A model generated the notes under the pieces. The model worked only from the letters and a program-made list of their open reading frames with translations. It searched no databases and was not told where the DNA came from. Source: Desulfobacterales bacterium GWB2_56_26 (GTDB lineage Bacteria; Desulfobacterota; Desulfobulbia; Desulfobulbales; Desulfocapsaceae). Taken from it: a DNA stretch of 43,815 nt. The stretch lies in assembly GCA_001799365.1 (NCBI GenBank), contig MGTI01000014.1:1-43815 (forward strand), read 5' to 3'. Of the stretch, positions 19,326-35,292 are shown piece after piece. The position numbers were made by a program, and so were the translations under genes. Position 1 is the stretch's first letter; every line of letters starts with the position of its first letter.

Positions 19326-21557
19326 ATGGCCAAGAATCTTCTCCAGCTGTTGTTTCATCCCAATCCCCTGAAAGCCGGACTGCTCTCCATCCTCGCCTGC
19401 TGCCTCCTCTGGAAATCCTTCGAATACGAGAAACCGGCCTTCTTTTCAGCCATCGATGCCAAAATCGTCGATACCATGTTCCTGATAAGGGGGGCGCAGG
19501 AGACCAGCGGCTCGGTGATCATCGTCGACATCGACGAGGCGAGCCTGAAGGAACACGGCCAATGGCCGTGGCCGCGAAATATCGTCGCCGACCTCACCCG
19601 CCGGATCTACGACGCCGGCGCTTTGGTCATCGGTTTCGATATCCTTTTTGCCGAAAAAGACCGGACGTCCCCCGCGGTTTTGTTCAACCGTTACCGAGAC
19701 CTTCTCGGCGACTGCGATGAACAGCTCCTGCAGACGGTCGGGGCGATCAGCGAGTACAACCATGACCGGCTGCTCGGTGACGCCATCGCCTCCGGGACCA
19801 GTGTGCTCAGCTACATGTTTTTGTTGCGGGAAGACTCCCTCAAAAACCCCGGCGCGACTCCCTTTCCCACCCCGAACATCACCATCGACAGTGAAGAAGC
19901 CGGATTCCCCGATCTGAAACTCATTTCCGCCTATCGTTCGATCATCAATATCCCCGAGGTGGCCACCGCCTCGTCGGAAGGTTTTTTCAACGTCTTCCCC
20001 GATCAGAGCGGCACGGTCCGCAAGGTGCCGCTGTTCATGATGATGGACGACATCCCCTACCCTTCGCTTGCCTTCGAAATGGTCCGGCTGGTCAAAAATG
20101 AAGAAGACGTTCAGCTGCATCTCAGCGCCATCGGCAGCAAAAACCAGCGAACCCTGCTCGGGGTGTCCATGGGGCAATCCTTTACCCGAACCGACGACCT
20201 GGGCCAGTTGACCGTCAATTTCCGCGGCCCCTATAACACCTTCCCCTACCTGTCCGCCGCCGACGTCCTGAAAGGTATCGGCACCGAACGGCTGAACGGC
20301 AAATACGTGCTGATCGGTTCTTCCGCCTCGGCACTCATGGATCTGGTCGCCACCCCGTTTTCATCGAGGTCGCCGGGGGTCGAGGTGCATGCCAATATCA
20401 TCGACAATCTGATCAAAAACGATGCTATGGTCTGGGAGAATTACACGGAAATCGGCTTGACCTATTTCATTATCATCATTGCCGGTCTGCTAATGGTCGT
20501 CTCCCTGGTTTACCTGGGACCATTCCTCGGCTTCGCCACTGGACTTGCCATCATGTTCGCCATCGTCGCCGGCAACTATCATTTTCTGTTTCAGAAGCAG
20601 CAACTCCTGGGCATCTCGTATATCCTCGCCTCGCTTCTGGCCGTCTTCATGACCGTTTCGATGTTCAATTACCTGTTCGAGGGCCGACGGCGCCTCTTTA
20701 TCAGGCGGGCCTTTTCCCACTACGTCTCCCCGTCGGTGGTCAATGAACTGCTGAAAAATCCCGAACGGCTCAACCTTTCCGTCGAGAGCCGGGAAGTCAC
20801 CATTCTCTTCTGCGATATCAGGAATTTTACAACACTCTCCGAAGTCACGCCTGTCGCCGAACTCGGCCAGTTTCTGAACACCTACTTCTCCCTCCTGACC
20901 GACATAATTACCAAACATAACGGCATGGTGGACAAATATATCGGCGATGCCATCATGGCGGTGTGGGGAACACCCCTCGACGACAAGGATCATGCCGAGA
21001 GTGCGGTACGGGCGGCACTCGAGATGATCTCGACCATCAGAGAACGCGGGGATCAGTTTAAGCTTGCCGGGCAGACCATCGAGATCGGCATCGGCATCAA
21101 TACCGGGATGGTCAGCGCCGGGAATTTCGGCAGCAGCAAACGTTTCGACTACACGGTCCTGGGCGACAACGTCAACCTTGCCTCAAGGATCGAGGGACTC
21201 ACCAAGTTCTATCGTTTGAAGATCCTGATCAGTGAGTTCACCCGCAAAAAACTCGCGCCCGATTACTGCTGCCGATTCGTCGATACGGTGATGGTCAAGG
21301 GTAGGAACAAACCAGTCAATCTCTTTGAGCCGCTGGGAGAGGTCGAAAACGCCGGCGAAAAGAGTGCGAAGCATGAGTCGTACGAAACGGCCCTGCTCCT
21401 GTTCAAATCCAGGCGGTTTGTCGAGGCACAGGACCTCTTTGCCCGCCTCTATGCGGAAAATCCCGAGAAGATTTACCAGATCTATCTGGAACGGTGCCGA
21501 AACTTTGCCGAGAATCCCCCGCCGCCGGAGTGGCAGGGGGTGCACGATCATAATTGA
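19326..21557 (+). CDS. CHASE2 domain adenylate/guanylate cyclase (class III)
   Basis: N-terminal TM plus CHASE2 (VIIVDIDEASLKEHGQWPWPR), three TM, cyclase core ILFCDIRNFTTLSE...DKYIGDAIMAVWGTP...FDYTVLGDNVNLASRIEGLTK. Confidence 0.95.
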   Translation: MAKNLLQLLFHPNPLKAGLLSILACCLLWKSFEYEKPAFFSAIDAKIVDTMFLIRGAQETSGSVIIVDIDEASLKEHGQWPWPRNIVADLTRRIYDAGALVIGFDILFAEKDRTSPAVLFNRYRDLLGDCDEQLLQTVGAISEYNHDRLLGDAIASGTSVLSYMFLLREDSLKNPGATPFPTPNITIDSEEAGFPDLKLISAYRSIINIPEVATASSEGFFNVFPDQSGTVRKVPLFMMMDDIPYPSLAFEMVRLVKNEEDVQLHLSAIGSKNQRTLLGVSMGQSFTRTDDLGQLTVNFRGPYNTFPYLSAADVLKGIGTERLNGKYVLIGSSASALMDLVATPFSSRSPGVEVHANIIDNLIKNDAMVWENYTEIGLTYFIIIIAGLLMVVSLVYLGPFLGFATGLAIMFAIVAGNYHFLFQKQQLLGISYILASLLAVFMTVSMFNYLFEGRRRLFIRRAFSHYVSPSVVNELLKNPERLNLSVESREVTILFCDIRNFTTLSEVTPVAELGQFLNTYFSLLTDIITKHNGMVDKYIGDAIMAVWGTPLDDKDHAESAVRAALEMISTIRERGDQFKLAGQTIEIGIGINTGMVSAGNFGSSKRFDYTVLGDNVNLASRIEGLTKFYRLKILISEFTRKKLAPDYCCRFVDTVMVKGRNKPVNLFEPLGEVENAGEKSAKHESYETALLLFKSRRFVEAQDLFARLYAENPEKIYQIYLERCRNFAENPPPPEWQGVHDHN

Positions 21558-22869: not shown

Positions 22870-25776
22870 TTGGGCCAAAACCTCTTCGGCGTACCCATGA
22901 ATTCTTCCGACCAACAAACGCATTCGCCGCAATTGACGCGGAATTTTCACCGATACAGATCCATCGCGGTGGCCGTCACCTTCGGTCTCATCCTGACCTG
23001 CGCACTCTTTTCGGCCATATCGATCGTCTCTCTGCTCGGTTTCAGGAATTTGCACCACGCCCTGACCCACATATCGGGAAAGCTTGCCGAGGAAGTCCGG
23101 CCGGCAGGTACCACCGCCGGAAACCACGGAGAAAGCGAGCCCAATGTGTGGGAAAAGGTAGGATTACGCTCTGCCGATTCCGCCGGCGTGCTTCCGGAGC
23201 TTGCCCGGCAGGCCGAAAAACTCGCCAAACATGCCGAGCAGCACATCAAGATTCTTGCAACCCTCTTTGTCCTGTCGCTGCTCCTGGCCCTTGCCTTTTT
23301 CTTCTATTTCCGGTGCAATCTCATCGCCCGGCTCACCCGTCTCAACCAGACAGTGCTTGCCATGGTCGAGGGGCAAAACCGGCAGATCATCGACACCGGG
23401 TGCGATGAAATCAGTGCCATCGCCAGCTCGATCAATTTTTTTTCGGCGGAGCTTTACAAGGCGAAAGCGGCAGCGGAAAGATCGGCGATCACCAAGTCGC
23501 AGTTCCTGGCCCATATGAGTCACGAGATACGAACGCCGATGAACGCCATCCTCGGTTTCTCCGACCTGGCGCTGCAGACAGACAATCCCTCGGATCATTT
23601 CGATTATCTCGGCAAAATCAACACCGCTTCCTATTCCCTGCTCGGCATCATCAATGCAATTCTCGACCTGTCGAAAATCGAGGCGGGCAAGCTCACGGTG
23701 GAAAACGTCGACTTCGATCTCCGCGAACTGCTGGAGAAACTGGCCACGCTGATCAGCCTCAGATGCGAGGAATCGGGAATCGAATTCTATTTCAACATCG
23801 CCCCGGAAACCCCTTTTGCCCTCAGAGGCGACGCCCTTCGCCTCAGCCAGGTCCTGACCAATCTGATAACCAACGCCTTCAAGTTTACCGAGAGCGGCTA
23901 TATTATCCTGCACATTTCCCCCGATCCGGGCCGCCTAATCGGAAGTGATCGGGTAATTTTACGTTTTTCCGTGCAAGACACCGGCACCGGCATCACCAAG
24001 GAACAGGAAGAGAACCTCTTTCAGCCGTTCACTCAGGCGGACTCCTCCATCACCCGCAAATTCGGCGGGACGGGCCTGGGACTCACCATCTGCAAGAGCC
24101 TCGTTGCGATCATGAACGGCAGCATCTGGCTTGAAAGAAACGACACCCCCGGCAGCACGTTCTGCTTCACCGTCCCCTTTGCCCGCAAGGAGGGTCACGA
24201 CCGCGATTTTTACTCGGCCCCCGGGATGGTTGCAGGCAAGAGGATGATCGTCATGTCTGAAAGGCCGCAAAAGGCGAGTGAACTCTCCTACCAGCTGGCC
24301 GCCTTCGGGATCGAAGTCTGCCAGGCGCTGACGGTGCAGGAGGTTGTCTCCGCCCTCTGCGAGCAGCCACTCCAGAACCCCTACGAAATCGTGATTGTCG
24401 ATTGCGAGATCTATTCGCAGCGCTGGCTGGAGATTCCGGGAAAAATCAAAGCGGCCGCAGCGGCAGCTGTTGCCCCCGCCCTGATTCTCACCGGCATGCA
24501 GCGATTGTCGACCCACTTTTCCGCCCACAATATAAACGGCTGCGACTATTTTCTCGCCAAACCCATAACGCCCGCCAGGCTGCTCGACGCGATCCTCACC
24601 GTCCTCGGCGCGGATAATCCGGACCCGGTCGCATCCTTGGACAAACGCTCGGCGGCCCCGTTGCCGTCGTTTGATCACCTCCTGGGGAATCGTGTACTGC
24701 TCGCGGAAGACAACAAGATCAATCAGCAGATCACCCTCGGTTTTCTCGATTTTGCCGGACTTGCCACGACCATTGTCCAAAACGGAGCCGAGGCGGTGGA
24801 ACTGCTCGAACGGGAAGGGACGTCCTTCGACCTGGTACTGATGGATATCCAGATGCCGGTCATGGACGGCTACAGTGCCACCGAGGCGATACGAAAGATG
24901 GCCGCACCGACCGGCAAGATTCCGATCATCGCCCTGACCGCCCACGCCATGCAGGAGGAAAAACAGAAATGTCTCGACCGGGGGATGAACGACTACATCA
25001 CCAAACCCATCAACCCCGAGCAGCTGTTTGCCACCCTCGGCAGATACCTTCCCTGCCGCCCCCCTGCTCTGAGGCGGCCGGCAAAACCGCAAGAACCGGA
25101 GGGTCTGCCGGAGGAACTGGCTGCCGGCCGGCACGGGATCGACATGAAAGCGGGTCTTGCCCGCACCATGGGCAATCCCACGCTCTATCTCGATCTGCTG
25201 GCAACCTTCGTCGAAAGATATCGGTCCTATCCGGAGATCATGCGGGAAGAATTCAAGAAACTCTCGTTCGATCAGGCCCGCCGGATGATCCATACCCTCA
25301 AAGGCGTGAGCGGTAATCTGGCGATGAATACCCTCTATGCCCAATGCGTCCAGCTGGAAGTATCGCTCAAACGAAAAAAGATAAACGAATGCAACATTCT
25401 CTTTGACGATCTTGAAAGGGAGCTCGAAAATATCTGCGGCTTTCTCCGGCAATATCTTGACAGATACCGAAATTCCGTATCGAATAGAGCGCTGATGCGG
25501 GAAGAATTCCCCGTCGATTCCGAGGACAAGAATTCGCTGTTGCAAGGTCTGGCTCATTCTTTACAGAACAACAGCTCAAGGGCCTTGAAACAGATCAACC
25601 GTCTACGTTCGTATCTGGAACCGGAAGATAAGATTGTTTTTGCAAGAATCGAAAAGTATATCAACGACCTGGATTTCGAAACAGCACGAACACTCCTGAT
25701 CCAGTGGCAAGACTCGATCCGGAAAGAGGAGCGCGAAACTCATTCATGCAAGACGAATGTACGCCAAAGATCCTGA
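22870..25776 (+). CDS. Hybrid sensor histidine kinase (TM sensor, HisKA, HATPase, pseudo-REC, REC, Hpt)
   Basis: FLAHMSHEIRTPMNAILGFSDLAL; NLITNAFKFT; GTGLGLTICKSLV; REC VLLAEDNKINQQ...DLVLMDIQMPVMDGYSATEAIR; Hpt RRMIHTLKGVSGNLA. Confidence 0.95.
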   Translation: MGQNLFGVPMNSSDQQTHSPQLTRNFHRYRSIAVAVTFGLILTCALFSAISIVSLLGFRNLHHALTHISGKLAEEVRPAGTTAGNHGESEPNVWEKVGLRSADSAGVLPELARQAEKLAKHAEQHIKILATLFVLSLLLALAFFFYFRCNLIARLTRLNQTVLAMVEGQNRQIIDTGCDEISAIASSINFFSAELYKAKAAAERSAITKSQFLAHMSHEIRTPMNAILGFSDLALQTDNPSDHFDYLGKINTASYSLLGIINAILDLSKIEAGKLTVENVDFDLRELLEKLATLISLRCEESGIEFYFNIAPETPFALRGDALRLSQVLTNLITNAFKFTESGYIILHISPDPGRLIGSDRVILRFSVQDTGTGITKEQEENLFQPFTQADSSITRKFGGTGLGLTICKSLVAIMNGSIWLERNDTPGSTFCFTVPFARKEGHDRDFYSAPGMVAGKRMIVMSERPQKASELSYQLAAFGIEVCQALTVQEVVSALCEQPLQNPYEIVIVDCEIYSQRWLEIPGKIKAAAAAAVAPALILTGMQRLSTHFSAHNINGCDYFLAKPITPARLLDAILTVLGADNPDPVASLDKRSAAPLPSFDHLLGNRVLLAEDNKINQQITLGFLDFAGLATTIVQNGAEAVELLEREGTSFDLVLMDIQMPVMDGYSATEAIRKMAAPTGKIPIIALTAHAMQEEKQKCLDRGMNDYITKPINPEQLFATLGRYLPCRPPALRRPAKPQEPEGLPEELAAGRHGIDMKAGLARTMGNPTLYLDLLATFVERYRSYPEIMREEFKKLSFDQARRMIHTLKGVSGNLAMNTLYAQCVQLEVSLKRKKINECNILFDDLERELENICGFLRQYLDRYRNSVSNRALMREEFPVDSEDKNSLLQGLAHSLQNNSSRALKQINRLRSYLEPEDKIVFARIEKYINDLDFETARTLLIQWQDSIRKEERETHSCKTNVRQRS

Positions 25777-26714
25777 TCATTGACGACAGTATCGAGCATA
25801 TCAAGATCCTGATCGGGCTGCTGGAAGACCTGTATGACATACACTTCGCCAAAAGCGGGGAGCAGGGACTGGAACTCTTATCCACCGCCAATCCCGATCT
25901 CATCCTCCTCGATATCGTGATGCCGGAGATGGACGGCTTCGAAGTGTGCCGGCGGATTAAGCAGCATGAAAAGTGGCAGGAAACACCGCTGATCTTCATC
26001 TCGGCCCAGGGTGAGGCGGGCGATGAGACCCGCGGGCTGAACCTGGGCGCCATCGATTATATCGCCAAGCCCTTCAATCCGGCGATTGTCAAGGCCAGGA
26101 TACGCAATCATCTGCAGTTGCGGGCGGCGATGCGGGAGTTGGAACGGCTCTACACTCTCGCCCTCGATGCCAATCCCCTCACCGGTCTGCCGGGCAATAA
26201 CTCCATCATCAAAAACATCGAGGCCAAGCTGCAGGCGGGCGACAGCTCCTGTGTCATCTATACCGATATCGATAATTTCAAGGCCTATAACGATAAATAC
26301 GGCTTTGCCCGCGGCGACGAGATCATCCGCTTCAGCGCAGGTCTTTTGAAGGCGGCGGTGGCTAAGTCAGGCTGTGCCGAGGCCTTTGTCGGCCACGTCG
26401 GCGGCGATGACTTCATCATGATTATCCCCGCCGAACACTGCCTGCTGGTGACCGAGGACATCATCCGTAATTTCGACAGGGACATCATCAACTTCTACAA
26501 CCGCCAGGACACCGACCGGCGGTGTATCCAGGCGACCGACCGGCGCGGCCGGCAGCAGATATTCCCCATCATGAGCATCAGCATCGCCGGGATCGATCTC
26601 AGCCACCGGCGATACTCCTCATACCTCGAGGTCAACGATGCCTGCGCCGAGATGAAAAAGGTGGCCAAGTCCACTCCCGGCAGCACCGTCTGTTTCGACC
26701 AGCGTACAACGTAG
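25746..26714 (+). CDS. Response regulator with degenerate GGDEF-like (GGDDF) output domain
   Basis: REC PKILIIDDSIEHIKILIGLLED...LILLDIVMPEMDGFEVCRRIK; output domain YTDIDNFKAYNDKYGFARGDEIIRF...HVGGDDFIMIIP; overlaps the kinase gene by 31 bp. Confidence 0.92.
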   Translation: MQDECTPKILIIDDSIEHIKILIGLLEDLYDIHFAKSGEQGLELLSTANPDLILLDIVMPEMDGFEVCRRIKQHEKWQETPLIFISAQGEAGDETRGLNLGAIDYIAKPFNPAIVKARIRNHLQLRAAMRELERLYTLALDANPLTGLPGNNSIIKNIEAKLQAGDSSCVIYTDIDNFKAYNDKYGFARGDEIIRFSAGLLKAAVAKSGCAEAFVGHVGGDDFIMIIPAEHCLLVTEDIIRNFDRDIINFYNRQDTDRRCIQATDRRGRQQIFPIMSISIAGIDLSHRRYSSYLEVNDACAEMKKVAKSTPGSTVCFDQRTT

Positions 26715-30745: not shown

Positions 30746-31504
30746 TTACCGTTCGACCATCGCTTTCCTATACTCGTAATATGCCTGTCGGGTGGCGATA
30801 TACGGATCCAGCGCGTACCTCTTCACATCCTCATACAGATCGGGATAGAGCGAGAGATTGTTCACCCTGCTGGTTGTATAATAGGCCATGTCGAGGGTCC
30901 AGTCGTCGTGAAAATAGGGAACCGGATGGAGATAGGCATCGGCTGCCAATCCCACGGAATCGCGTACACTCGATGGCCCGAAGAGCGGCCAATATAAAAA
31001 AATCCCTTCCGCCAGGCCCCATTTGCCGAGAGTCTGGCCGAAATCGGCCCGTTCGGGATCGATATCGAACTCAACAGATGCCACATCGACGAAACCGTAC
31101 ACCCCGATTGTGCTGTTGATGACAAAGCGGCTGAGGGTTTTGCCGGTAAGCTGCATATCCCCCTGCAGGAGGGCGTTGACAAGGGTGATGGGAGTTGCCA
31201 CGTTGTGGAAGAAATTGCCGAAACATTCCCGAAGCTCGCGAGGCAGCACCCGACTGTACACCCTGGTGGTCGGCTTGAGAACCCATTCATACAACTCGTC
31301 GTTTACCCTGAAGAAAAACCGGTTCATCGGTTCCAGAGGATCGCGAATCGCCAATTGCTCCTGAATTTCATCATAGCCACCAGCTTCTTCCGTCTCCTCC
31401 GTCAACAGATCCGGAAAAGGTTGATCCGGAGCGGTTTGGGCGGAGAGAGCGGCAGGGAAAAGAAAAGGGATCAGAAAAAAAAGAAACAACCGGACAGTTT
31501 TCAT
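30746..31504 (-). CDS. mlaA: MlaA (VacJ) family lipoprotein
   Basis: RDPLEPMNRFFFRVNDELYEWVLKPTTRVYSRVLPRELRECFGNFFHNVATPITLVNALLQG...INSTIGVYGFVDVA. Confidence 0.93.
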   Translation of the reverse strand: MKTVRLFLFFLIPFLFPAALSAQTAPDQPFPDLLTEETEEAGGYDEIQEQLAIRDPLEPMNRFFFRVNDELYEWVLKPTTRVYSRVLPRELRECFGNFFHNVATPITLVNALLQGDMQLTGKTLSRFVINSTIGVYGFVDVASVEFDIDPERADFGQTLGKWGLAEGIFLYWPLFGPSSVRDSVGLAADAYLHPVPYFHDDWTLDMAYYTTSRVNNLSLYPDLYEDVKRYALDPYIATRQAYYEYRKAMVER

Positions 31505-31673: not shown

Positions 31674-34310
31674 TTAAACCATGAAGACAAACATCCCTCC
31701 CAGGGCGATGAGGAAGGTGAACGGGATTGCCAGCGCCTTCGAAGTCACCGTATCCCCGGCCATGGACCGCTCTATCACCCGGTAGGTGGCATAGAGGGAG
31801 GCGAGCAGCCCACCCATCACCGTCAGGAACTGAAGCACATAGGTGCTGTCCACGCTGATCAACCGGATATTCTCATAAACCGGCTGCATACCCAGCAACT
31901 GTTCGATATTAGGAACGATCCGCCCCGCTCCGCCGACGAAGATTTCCATGTGTACGGCCATGTAACCGCCCAGGATGAGCGGAATAATCCCGTATCCCGA
32001 AAGCGATAGCAGCAGCTTTTTGTCGATCCGCGCATAGAGCGCCTCAATCGATACCGTGAGGTAGAAGCCGACCTGGAAGAACAGAATAAGCGCAAAAAAG
32101 AGTATGCTTGCGACTCCCGCCTCAGGCAGCATCACACCCGATCCGGCAACGCTTGAAACCAGCCAGTCGACCAGTCCGGCAAACTCGCTCTGCAGGGCAA
32201 ACGGAAAAAAAATCGCCGCCATCGAGACGATGAGAAAGCTGTCCGCACTCCTGGGCGTCTCCAGAGCCCACAGCTCCTGCGGGGCAAGGCGCAGATTGAT
32301 CTGGATGGAGCTGTTGACGCAGTTCTTGACGCACTTGGCGCACATGATGCAATCCCGATTGTTATCAACCAGATACGGATGCCTGAACATCGGGCACCCG
32401 GCCATGTCGCCGTCGCCGACATAACAGGAGTGGTCCTGGCAGCGATTCAGACAGACATGTCTGTTGGAACGCAGTTCGACCACCGACGGCATCGAAAAAA
32501 TGGCGTTCACGGCCCCCAGGGGACAAATATACCGGCACCAGCTGCGCCTGGAAAACAGCACGGAAAAGAGGATGGAGCCCAAGGTGATGATCAAGATAAT
32601 GCCGCCGGTCAGATACGGATTGTGGTAGGCATCCCAGACAATCTCGACCCAGTACACCACGATACAGAGGACCGCCATGATCCAGCCGGAATAATCCTTG
32701 ATGAGCTGCGGGGTCTTGCGCTTCGGTTTGACCATGTTCTGCAGGATCGTGCCCGGCGCGGCGAGAGTGCAGACGCTGCACCAGGTTCTGGCCAGAAAAA
32801 AGAACGAGAAGAACAATACCGGCCAGCCAATGTACCAGCCGATGGTCAGCCCAAGATTGGCCTGCGGATCCCTCGGCCCGAAAAAGAGAAAGAGGACGGT
32901 GATCAGCAGCACGGTACCCACGATAAACTGGGGGACGCGGGGAAAGATCCGGCTTTCGAGAAATTTTCTGATCCAGGCGATTCTGAGGATGTTGTACTCC
33001 CACTTCCCTTCCGTTTTCGGCAGGCCGAGCAGAATCTGATCCGGGACGATCTCATCTTTTTTGGCCAGCATGACTGCCCGGCGGATCACGCTCGACAACT
33101 CGGTGAGATTGCCGGGCCAGTCGTAATTCATGAAAATCCCCAGGGTCTCCGGCGAGACCTTATGGATCTTCTTGCCGTATTCGCGGCTGAAACGGGCGAG
33201 ATAGTGCAGAACCAGCCGGGGCAGGTCCTCCTTGTGGTTGCGGAGCGGCGGGACGTGGAACTGGCAGGGCTCGAACAGGGCTAAAAGTTCGGGCAGGATT
33301 TTGCCGGTACTTTTCAAGTGGTCGATGGAATAGGTGCTGATAAAGACGATGCGCGACTGCATCGCCACCCGATTATCGCTGTCGACATGGCTATAGGTGC
33401 TGCTCTCTATGATTTTTACCAGCTTTTCCTGCAGCTCCTTCTTCATCAGGTGGATATGAGTGAATACCAGGGTGCCCCCGGTGGTCTGCTCGAAGAGCCC
33501 GGCCCGTCGGGCCTGGGCAAAGGGGAAGGCGTTCTGCTCGGTGCCGAGGAGTTTCCGCTCCAGGCGCATCGGCTCGTACTCCCGCAGATCGACCTCCCGG
33601 AACTGCCCTTCGGCCCTGCGGCTCTGCAGATGGATCTGCCTGGCGATGACCGATTTGCCGGTCCCCGCTTCTCCGGTGAGAATATACGGAGCACTGGTGG
33701 CAGCGAATTTGCCGATTATCGCCTGGGTCTTTTTGGCTGTCTTCGATTCGCGGATATCGTCGTTTTTGCGCCGGGCCAGGCGGCGCAGCTGAATGGCCGA
33801 CATGCTTTTATCCTTGAACAGGATCACATCGTCGGCCCCGGACATCTCATCCTTGCGGTGTTCGTCGCCGGGTGCATCCACCTGGTCGATGAAGGCCACC
33901 CGCAGCCGCTCCGCCAGTGCGGCATCGAGTTGCCGGTGGATTCTGCTGTTGGATAGAATGGCTATACGGAAATAGCGTTTATCGAAACAGATAACGACCA
34001 GATCGCACAGTGCCCGGACCGACAGCGACCGCGGTTTTTCCGTGAGAATGCCGGTTTCGCCGAAATGACCGCCCGGGCCGATCCTGCCGACAATCCTGGT
34101 GCCCCCGTCGTCGCGGCCGAGGAGGAGTTCGGCCTCGCCCATGGCGATGACATAGAACACCTCGCTGACATCGCCTTTCCGATAGACATACTGCCCTTCG
34201 GGGACAATCTGAACTCGGGCCACCTGGGCAAAGGAGGCGATTTCGGCGGCAGTGGCATCCCGGAAGAGGATGGAGCGCTGCAGATGTTCGGCTATGACTT
34301 CTCTTTTCAT
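31674..34310 (-). CDS. cNMP-binding domain - degenerate sigma54 AAA+ domain - membrane 4Fe-4S polyferredoxin fusion
   Basis: cNMP motif GHFGETGILTEKPRSLSVRA; Walker A ILTGEAGTGKSVIARQIH with LLGTEQNAFPFAQARRAGLFEQTTGGTLVFTHIHL (no GAFTGA, no DE); polyferredoxin CSVCTLAAPG, CRYICPLGAVNA, CIMCAKCVKNCVNSSIQINLR with multiple TM. Confidence 0.9.
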   Translation of the reverse strand: MKREVIAEHLQRSILFRDATAAEIASFAQVARVQIVPEGQYVYRKGDVSEVFYVIAMGEAELLLGRDDGGTRIVGRIGPGGHFGETGILTEKPRSLSVRALCDLVVICFDKRYFRIAILSNSRIHRQLDAALAERLRVAFIDQVDAPGDEHRKDEMSGADDVILFKDKSMSAIQLRRLARRKNDDIRESKTAKKTQAIIGKFAATSAPYILTGEAGTGKSVIARQIHLQSRRAEGQFREVDLREYEPMRLERKLLGTEQNAFPFAQARRAGLFEQTTGGTLVFTHIHLMKKELQEKLVKIIESSTYSHVDSDNRVAMQSRIVFISTYSIDHLKSTGKILPELLALFEPCQFHVPPLRNHKEDLPRLVLHYLARFSREYGKKIHKVSPETLGIFMNYDWPGNLTELSSVIRRAVMLAKKDEIVPDQILLGLPKTEGKWEYNILRIAWIRKFLESRIFPRVPQFIVGTVLLITVLFLFFGPRDPQANLGLTIGWYIGWPVLFFSFFFLARTWCSVCTLAAPGTILQNMVKPKRKTPQLIKDYSGWIMAVLCIVVYWVEIVWDAYHNPYLTGGIILIITLGSILFSVLFSRRSWCRYICPLGAVNAIFSMPSVVELRSNRHVCLNRCQDHSCYVGDGDMAGCPMFRHPYLVDNNRDCIMCAKCVKNCVNSSIQINLRLAPQELWALETPRSADSFLIVSMAAIFFPFALQSEFAGLVDWLVSSVAGSGVMLPEAGVASILFFALILFFQVGFYLTVSIEALYARIDKKLLLSLSGYGIIPLILGGYMAVHMEIFVGGAGRIVPNIEQLLGMQPVYENIRLISVDSTYVLQFLTVMGGLLASLYATYRVIERSMAGDTVTSKALAIPFTFLIALGGMFVFMV

Positions 34311-34374: not shown

Positions 34375-35292
34375 TCAGATTTGCAAATGACGCTCGATTA
34401 CCTCGGCGATGAGCGGGGCCACGGAATAGACGTCGAGCAGATCGTCGCTTTCCCGTCCCGGATAGGTGTCCGATCCCATCACCCGCGAGATAGGCCCTTC
34501 CCGGAACTTTTTCATGGAGTCGCCTGCCATCACCAGATGGGTGGCGTGGGCCACAACTTCTTTTGCCCCCGCCTCCAGGCACCGGGTCGCGGTCTGCAGG
34601 ATCGAGCCGCCGGTGCGGATCATATCGTCGCAGATTATCACCGTCTTCCCTCGCACGGCGCTCGAAACCTGACCGACGATGGTCTTGTCGGTATCGTAGC
34701 GGTCTTTATCCGCCGCGGTATGAGGGCAATTCAAAATGCTCGCGAGTCGGGCGATCCTCTTGGAAAAACCGTAGTCGGGAGAAACCAGCACGTAATTCTG
34801 CAGCCCACTCTTTCTGATTTTTTCAATAACCAGATCGTCGGTCCAGACATGCTTGGTGCTGACCTCGCCGCCATGGGCATGGAGAACCGCCTCGGAGTGG
34901 AGATCGATAAAGGCGACGAAATCCGGCCGTGCCCGGAAAATCTGCCGGGTCCTGGTTATGCCTTTCGGGATCTCGTGGGAATTGGGTTTGGCCCTCTCCA
35001 TGGTGGAATAGCCGAGAAACGGAATGACGACATTGATCGATGCGGCATTCCAGTATCTCGCCCCTGTGATGAGGTCGAGCAATTCCTGCTGGGAGGAGTC
35101 GTCATGGGTCACGCCGACAATGACCAGATCCTTGCCGGAAATGGACTGGGGGAAGGCATGGTAGCGTTCCCCGTCGGCAAAGCGCTTACCGATCATCTCG
35201 GTGAAGGGAACCCACATCCGCTCCGCCACTTTGAAACCCAGTTCGGTGGATGCTTCGTTCGCCACCAGAATGACATTTTCCTTCTTGGTCAT
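34375..35292 (-). CDS. prs: Ribose-phosphate pyrophosphokinase family protein (divergent)
   Basis: FADGERYHAFP, VIPFLGYSTMERAKP, FIDLHSEAV, PRPP loop VIICDDMIRTGGSIL. Confidence 0.8.
   Translation of the reverse strand: MTKKENVILVANEASTELGFKVAERMWVPFTEMIGKRFADGERYHAFPQSISGKDLVIVGVTHDDSSQQELLDLITGARYWNAASINVVIPFLGYSTMERAKPNSHEIPKGITRTRQIFRARPDFVAFIDLHSEAVLHAHGGEVSTKHVWTDDLVIEKIRKSGLQNYVLVSPDYGFSKRIARLASILNCPHTAADKDRYDTDKTIVGQVSSAVRGKTVIICDDMIRTGGSILQTATRCLEAGAKEVVAHATHLVMAGDSMKKFREGPISRVMGSDTYPGRESDDLLDVYSVAPLIAEVIERHLQI

Follow-up and report, generated by a model that had tools for sequence, protein, structure and literature searches.

A membrane Fe-S protein headed by a cNMP-binding domain and a degenerate sigma54-type AAA+ domain

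The locus and its gene product

The window, i.e. the whole analysed stretch of 43,815 nucleotides, encodes on its minus strand an 878-aa protein that joins a cNMP-binding domain, a sigma54-type AAA+ domain and a membrane Fe-S module. The gene, its parts and its two direct neighbours are located as follows:

31674..34310, minus strand: whole ORF, 878 aa, cNMP domain, dead sigma54-type AAA+ domain and membrane polyferredoxin
33891..34310, minus strand: residues 1-140, cNMP-binding domain with capping helices (PF00027)
33753..33890, minus strand: residues 141-186, variable linker (67% mean identity to the consensus, 11% invariant columns)
33243..33752, minus strand: residues 187-356, AAA+ core of the sigma54-activator type, catalytically degenerate
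33006..33242, minus strand: residues 357-435, AAA lid and juxtamembrane segment, highly conserved, very low dN/dS
31677..33005, minus strand: residues 436-878, membrane 4Fe-4S-type module with about nine TM helices and predicted cytoplasmic-side cysteines
34375..35292, minus strand: ribose-phosphate diphosphokinase (Prs)-like gene (305 aa), directly upstream, 64 bp away
30746..31504, minus strand: mlaA-like lipoprotein gene, directly downstream

The reading frame extends over 878 codons from ATG to TAA without internal stops, and the coordinates and the single ORF given in the first-pass annotation are right. Four Pfam models match above their gathering scores in the order cNMP_binding (PF00027, residues 36-117, 62 bits), Sigma54_activat (PF00158, residues 187-340, 99 bits, cut-off 20.2), AAA_lid_14 (PF25601, residues 357-426, 67 bits) and Fer4_5 (PF12801, residues 569-606, 30.8 bits, gathering score 22). 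A helix-turn-helix (HTH) was not detected in the 878-aa protein (Pfam, E 0.01). This includes the CRP/Fnr-type HTH behind the cNMP domain, where Pfam shows the linker and then the AAA domain.

An assembly error or frameshift that fuses separate genes had been named at the outset as what would overturn the three-part reading. The probability of such an artefact is negligible, because 11 full-length relatives with 68-89% identity are encoded in one frame in independent assemblies, the source genome itself carries a paralog, and pairwise dN/dS values of about 0.02-0.2 in every domain of the protein and its relatives indicate purifying selection. Most of these 11 assemblies bear the titles Desulfobulbaceae, Desulfopila or Desulforhopalus. 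Cultured bacteria with orthologs include Desulfopila sp. IMCC35006 and Desulforhopalus sp. IMCC35007 (L009 and L012). The ORF is a real, maintained gene. Constraint among close orthologs peaks in the AAA lid and the Fe-S part: invariant columns amount to 62% in the lid, 59% in the Fe-S part, 28% in the less conserved AAA core and 11% in the linker. The dN/dS of the lid is the lowest of all regions in three of four tested pairs and the second lowest in the remaining pair.

The Prs-like protein scores above the ribP_PPkin cut-off and below those of other Prs models. Its gene lies upstream of the fusion gene in most close relatives, and most close orthologs share the order hisD-rsmG-leuB-prs-[X]-mlaA, where [X] is the fusion gene. 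Since the neighbours of paralogs and distant relatives differ, the context does not name a partner; no conserved redox partner gene adjoins the window gene or the paralogs. Elsewhere in the window, a response regulator with GGDEF (25704-26714, plus strand) adjoins a hybrid histidine kinase with Hpt (22870-25776).

An AAA+ domain without the activator motifs

The roles of the AAA+ motifs in sigma54 activators (bEBPs) have been reviewed (PMC7175178). In the 878-aa protein, the corresponding positions read:

33651..33674, minus strand: residues 213-220, Walker A GEAGTGKS, intact
33516..33533, minus strand: residues 260-265, NAFPFA at the GAFTGA (loop L1) position
33456..33476, minus strand: residues 279-285, Walker B strand GTLVFTH, D and E lost
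33276..33299, minus strand: residues 338-345, arginine-finger region ILPELLAL, both Arg lost
33096..33119, minus strand: residues 398-405, sensor II WPGNLTEL, Thr for Arg (WPGNVREL otherwise)

The retained Walker A, NAFPFA in place of GAFTGA and TH in place of the Walker B DE (residues 284-285) had all been read correctly in the first-pass annotation. The losses go beyond its list: neither arginine-finger position (residues 339 and 345) carries an Arg, the sensor I Asn is missing at residue 326, and the sensor II Arg is gone as well.

These changes are a property of the family. In an alignment of 55 family members with 22 canonical activators, 20 of the latter from the same genome, the GAFTGA-like loop, the Walker B Glu and arginine finger 2 are present in 22/22 canonical proteins versus 0/55 family members. 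The Walker B acid and the sensor II Arg, again found in all 22 canonical activators, persist in two of the 55 each, as does arginine finger 1, and the sensor I Asn is found in 10/55. Altogether, the canonical set retains every compared motif in 20-22 of its 22 members. What the family preserves is mostly structural: glycines, GN and E in the lid motif, and a Walker A that is complete in 41/55. In the paralog clade, Arg replaces the Walker A lysine, and a few distant members have a disrupted P-loop. The fold itself is retained in the predicted structure, with a TM-score of 0.88 to the AAA domain of NtrC1 (AlphaFold model, fold search); the fold-search matches listed bore only on the AAA part, and in this model, built from 12 close sequences, confidence in the membrane part is low (overall mean pLDDT 52.8).

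Judged by these motifs, the protein is not a sigma54 activator, because the GAFTGA loop, the Walker B Glu and finger 2 are lost family-wide, the sensor II Arg almost so, and an HTH was not found. The Sigma54_activat annotation would suit a sigma54-dependent transcription activator of unusual sequence, yet contact and hydrolysis motifs have disappeared throughout the family, the protein is membrane-anchored and members occur in cyanobacteria, which makes this explanation highly improbable. Cyanobacteria are not known to possess sigma54. One Sigma54_DBD match was found in the source genome and none in the single control cyanobacterium. The loss of sigma54 activation proposed in the first-pass annotation is thus upheld by the motif counts, the missing HTH and the presence of the family on cyanobacterial plasmids. 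Its second idea, a nucleotide-dependent gate, is supported only in part: the P-loop lysine is kept in the 878-aa protein, but it is Arg in the paralog clade, Walker A is incomplete elsewhere in the family and the hydrolysis machinery is gone. Because some members lack a complete Walker A, the AAA domain may not need to bind nucleotide.

With the bEBPs NtrC1, PspF and NtrX, the 878-aa protein has the AAA+ fold, the lid and Walker A in common. It differs from them in the absence of GAFTGA, the Walker B DE, the arginine fingers, the sensor II Arg and the Fis HTH, and at the position of the bEBP HTH stands the membrane redox module. Activators without GAFTGA are on record: NtrC of Caulobacter and of Rhodobacter capsulatus and VspR of Vibrio cholerae are cited as such in PMC10274813. 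In these proteins, too, the loop that contacts sigma54 is lost and the AAA domain is retained in a role apart from sigma54. However, they act at DNA as transcription regulators, whereas the 878-aa protein has a membrane module and no recognisable HTH. Two activators of D. vulgaris with unusual motifs are also transcription regulators (PMC4641369).

A Fer4_5-type membrane module compared with NapH, NosR and CcoG

The C-terminal half contains the following cysteine motifs:

32769..32780, minus strand: CxxC of WCSVC (C511, C514), invariant
32319..32537, minus strand: CxxxCP (C592, C596) and two ferredoxin-like motifs, all invariant

The ferredoxin-like motifs comprise C620, C624, C629 and C639, and C654, C657, C660 and C664. 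The 12 cysteines are conserved without exception in 13 diverse proteins from three phyla, cyanobacterial members and a stand-alone Deinococcus module included, and would suffice for three cytoplasmic-side [4Fe-4S] clusters. The number of nine TM helices is approximate, as it was read off hydropathy plus model; the loop charges obey the positive-inside rule if the head and every cysteine are cytoplasmic. The Fer4_5 match and the invariant cysteines agree with the first-pass annotation, which had placed a NapH-like 4Fe-4S membrane module where a Fis HTH would be expected. In the source genome, Fer4_5 matches are confined to the two fusions.

E. coli NapH aligns to the module with an hhalign probability of 96-97.5%. 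The NapH models score far below their cut-offs (TIGR02163, 37.5 bits vs 213; NF007013, 40.6 vs 234), and therefore the module is a Fer4_5-type relative and not a NapH. With NapH/MauN it shares the layout of CxxxCP and CxxCxxCxxxC and the predicted cytoplasmic-side cysteines; unlike them, the 878-aa protein continues into additional C-terminal TMs and bears a large regulator head, and its gene is not flanked by nap genes. NosR and CcoG, the latter a cupric reductase reviewed in PMC7558416, likewise combine a Fer4_5-type membrane Fe-S core with extra domains. In the 878-aa protein, by contrast, the head consists of cNMP domain and pseudo-AAA; the N-terminal FMN-binding domain of NosR was not found with Pfam, the NosR model NF046105 scores 20.7 bits against a cut-off of 1000, and no match to the CcoG/RdxA model TIGR02745 was listed at E 0.1.

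Relatives of the module also exist on their own. One (L170) is located beside NapG/NapH-like genes, another (L168) beside CcmA/CcmC-like genes and a third (L167) beside a YtkA-like gene, with CcdA- and ResA-like genes near (by eye). In L180:4582-6801(+), a membrane Fe-S module of this type forms a fusion with a cytochrome c domain that has a Met/His-rich N-terminus. Other stand-alone modules are surrounded by unrelated genes. Because of these NapGH-, Ccm- and YtkA-like neighbours and the cytochrome c fusion, membrane electron transfer fits, and by analogy with NapH, NosR and CcoG it is probably the function of the module.

Distribution and origin of the fusion

The search across the phylum suggested in the first-pass annotation found the three-part architecture in 20 of 395 sampled genomes, with the AAA motif losses extending through the family; among sampled genomes of the order, the proportion is 41/194. 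The close-family profile behind the count for the order yields strong matches in 19/395 phylum genomes, to which a broader profile adds one fusion (G025). The 395/395 tally of the broader profile includes ordinary activators and was not used as prevalence. The source genome has a second copy (G000:C16:5994-8573; L017, 867 aa), and two matches occur in 9 of 12 sampled genomes of the genus, the source genome counted. This paralog (L060:5982-8585(+), contig C16) adjoins, in divergent orientation, genes that by eye resemble Fur/PerR and katG, and katG also lies near the Pseudanabaena member; the katG-like and PerR/Fur-like neighbours may be a coincidence.

Outside the phylum, tblastn detected members with all three parts on cyanobacterial plasmids (Pseudanabaena galeata and Aulosira laxa) and the membrane module without a head on a plasmid of Deinococcus ficus. 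The cysteine synthase gene cysK is located at most 20 bp 3' of the cyanobacterial plasmid members (L132:5407-8100, L133:5380-8094), and genes for DsrE, rhodanese and glutaredoxin are found near the Pseudanabaena copy. A link of the cyanobacterial members to sulfur metabolism is possible. Synechocystis slr0593 has been termed a 'cAMP binding membrane protein' (PMC3516471). It could be related to the family.

In a tree of AAA domains, one branch with support 100/99 separates 26 fusions from 27 canonical activators. The module tree requires two changes and has long branches. A single origin of the fusion is likely: the AAA domains form one group, although the modules need two changes. One protein from the phylum, L165, combines a cNMP domain with an intact AAA domain and a Fis HTH. 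It could have told against the loss of function as an ortholog with intact motifs and a DNA-binding domain, but it is devoid of the membrane module and groups with the canonical activators. L165 represents a one-component bEBP form with the cNMP domain in front, as in the 878-aa protein. Its arrangement is a plausible ancestral form; the protein itself is not taken as the direct ancestor, because it groups with the canonical set.

The cNMP domain as a putative sensor

The features that concern cyclic nucleotides are:

34017..34064, minus strand: residues 83-98, phosphate-binding cassette FGETGILTEKPRSLSV, E85 and R94 present
19326..21557, plus strand: CHASE2 and class III nucleotide cyclase, possible cyclic-nucleotide source, same window, about 10 kb away

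The cassette shows the FGE-x9-R layout (E85, R94), in accordance with the intact-looking motif of the first-pass annotation, and PDB profile matches of the domain are to PKA/PKG regulatory domains. The source genome encodes two class III cyclases, one of them inside the window. All 19 of the closest (type A) sequences have FGE, and 14 have R94. In the 71 family sequences, E85 is found in 65 and R94 in 26, and the paralog in the same genome has Asn at the R94 position. Cyclic-nucleotide control of the 878-aa protein is hence plausible. As a general input of the family a cyclic nucleotide is unlikely, because most members, the paralog included, have lost the cNMP Arg; cAMP or cGMP as family-wide input is not supported for this reason. 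The second-messenger link of the first-pass annotation is thus plausible only for the protein described there.

That the P-loop and the cNMP Arg vary within the family, and that headless membrane modules exist in other genomes, would also suit a constitutive membrane redox enzyme whose AAA head is a leftover oligomerisation unit that carries no signal. Such a purely structural scaffold is unlikely: the 12 closest proteins keep the P-loop GTGK and FGE without exception and R94 in 11 cases, dN/dS is low in the cNMP and AAA domains, and distant members keep N-terminal sensor domains or, in some cases, add further ones (FHA or GAF).

Proposed mode of action

We favour, with moderate confidence, an inner-membrane NapH-type Fe-S electron-transfer protein whose head combines a cNMP-type sensor with a non-hydrolysing pseudo-AAA+ domain derived from sigma54 activators. 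The pseudo-AAA domain would oligomerise, perhaps stabilised by nucleotide, and the state of the cNMP domain, possibly together with bound nucleotide, would set this oligomer. Given that constraint is strongest on the lid and the Fe-S part, we infer that the head is coupled through the lid to the membrane redox module, which in turn may tune the passage of electrons between donors in the cytoplasm and the membrane or periplasm.

Two genomes (L070:3439-9068, L072:6870-12636) encode a histidine kinase and an NtrC-type response regulator immediately upstream of a family member.

The signal might also run in the opposite direction. The Fe-S module would then sense the state of quinone or ferredoxin, and the AAA head would act in trans on active sigma54 activators, which it would sequester or join in mixed oligomers; the protein would thus be a membrane-tethered regulator and not an electron carrier. 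The retained AAA fold, the position behind a kinase and an NtrC-type regulator, and a source genome with sigma54 and dozens of activators speak for this outward redox sensor. Nevertheless, we regard it as improbable: the arginine fingers and GAFTGA, which are needed for ring function, are lost, the linkage to kinase and activator is limited to two genomes, and the family resides beside cysK on cyanobacterial plasmids, where sigma54 is not expected.

With regard to the family as a whole, it can be proposed, tentatively, that the inward-signalling electron-transfer protein described above represents a widespread class, in which a sigma54-type AAA+ domain has turned into a non-hydrolysing transmitter that conveys the state of a cNMP domain to a [4Fe-4S] module and controls electron flow directly, through the protein itself, instead of transcription.

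Significance

A full-text literature search, which covered few subscription papers, found no published description of the combination of cNMP domain, AAA domain and membrane Fe-S module. The individual parts are known, but neither their combination nor its wide occurrence nor the consistent loss of AAA function appears to have been described. An AAA+ domain of transcription activators has been recruited onto a membrane redox protein and, stripped of its catalytic parts, has persisted across the phylum and beyond. Family members are at times annotated as regulators, e.g. as 'nitrogen assimilation regulatory protein' in Aulosira, which misleads the interpretation of genomes. If the head controls electron flow, the family would tie signalling directly to respiration-type electron transfer in relatives of sulfate reducers.
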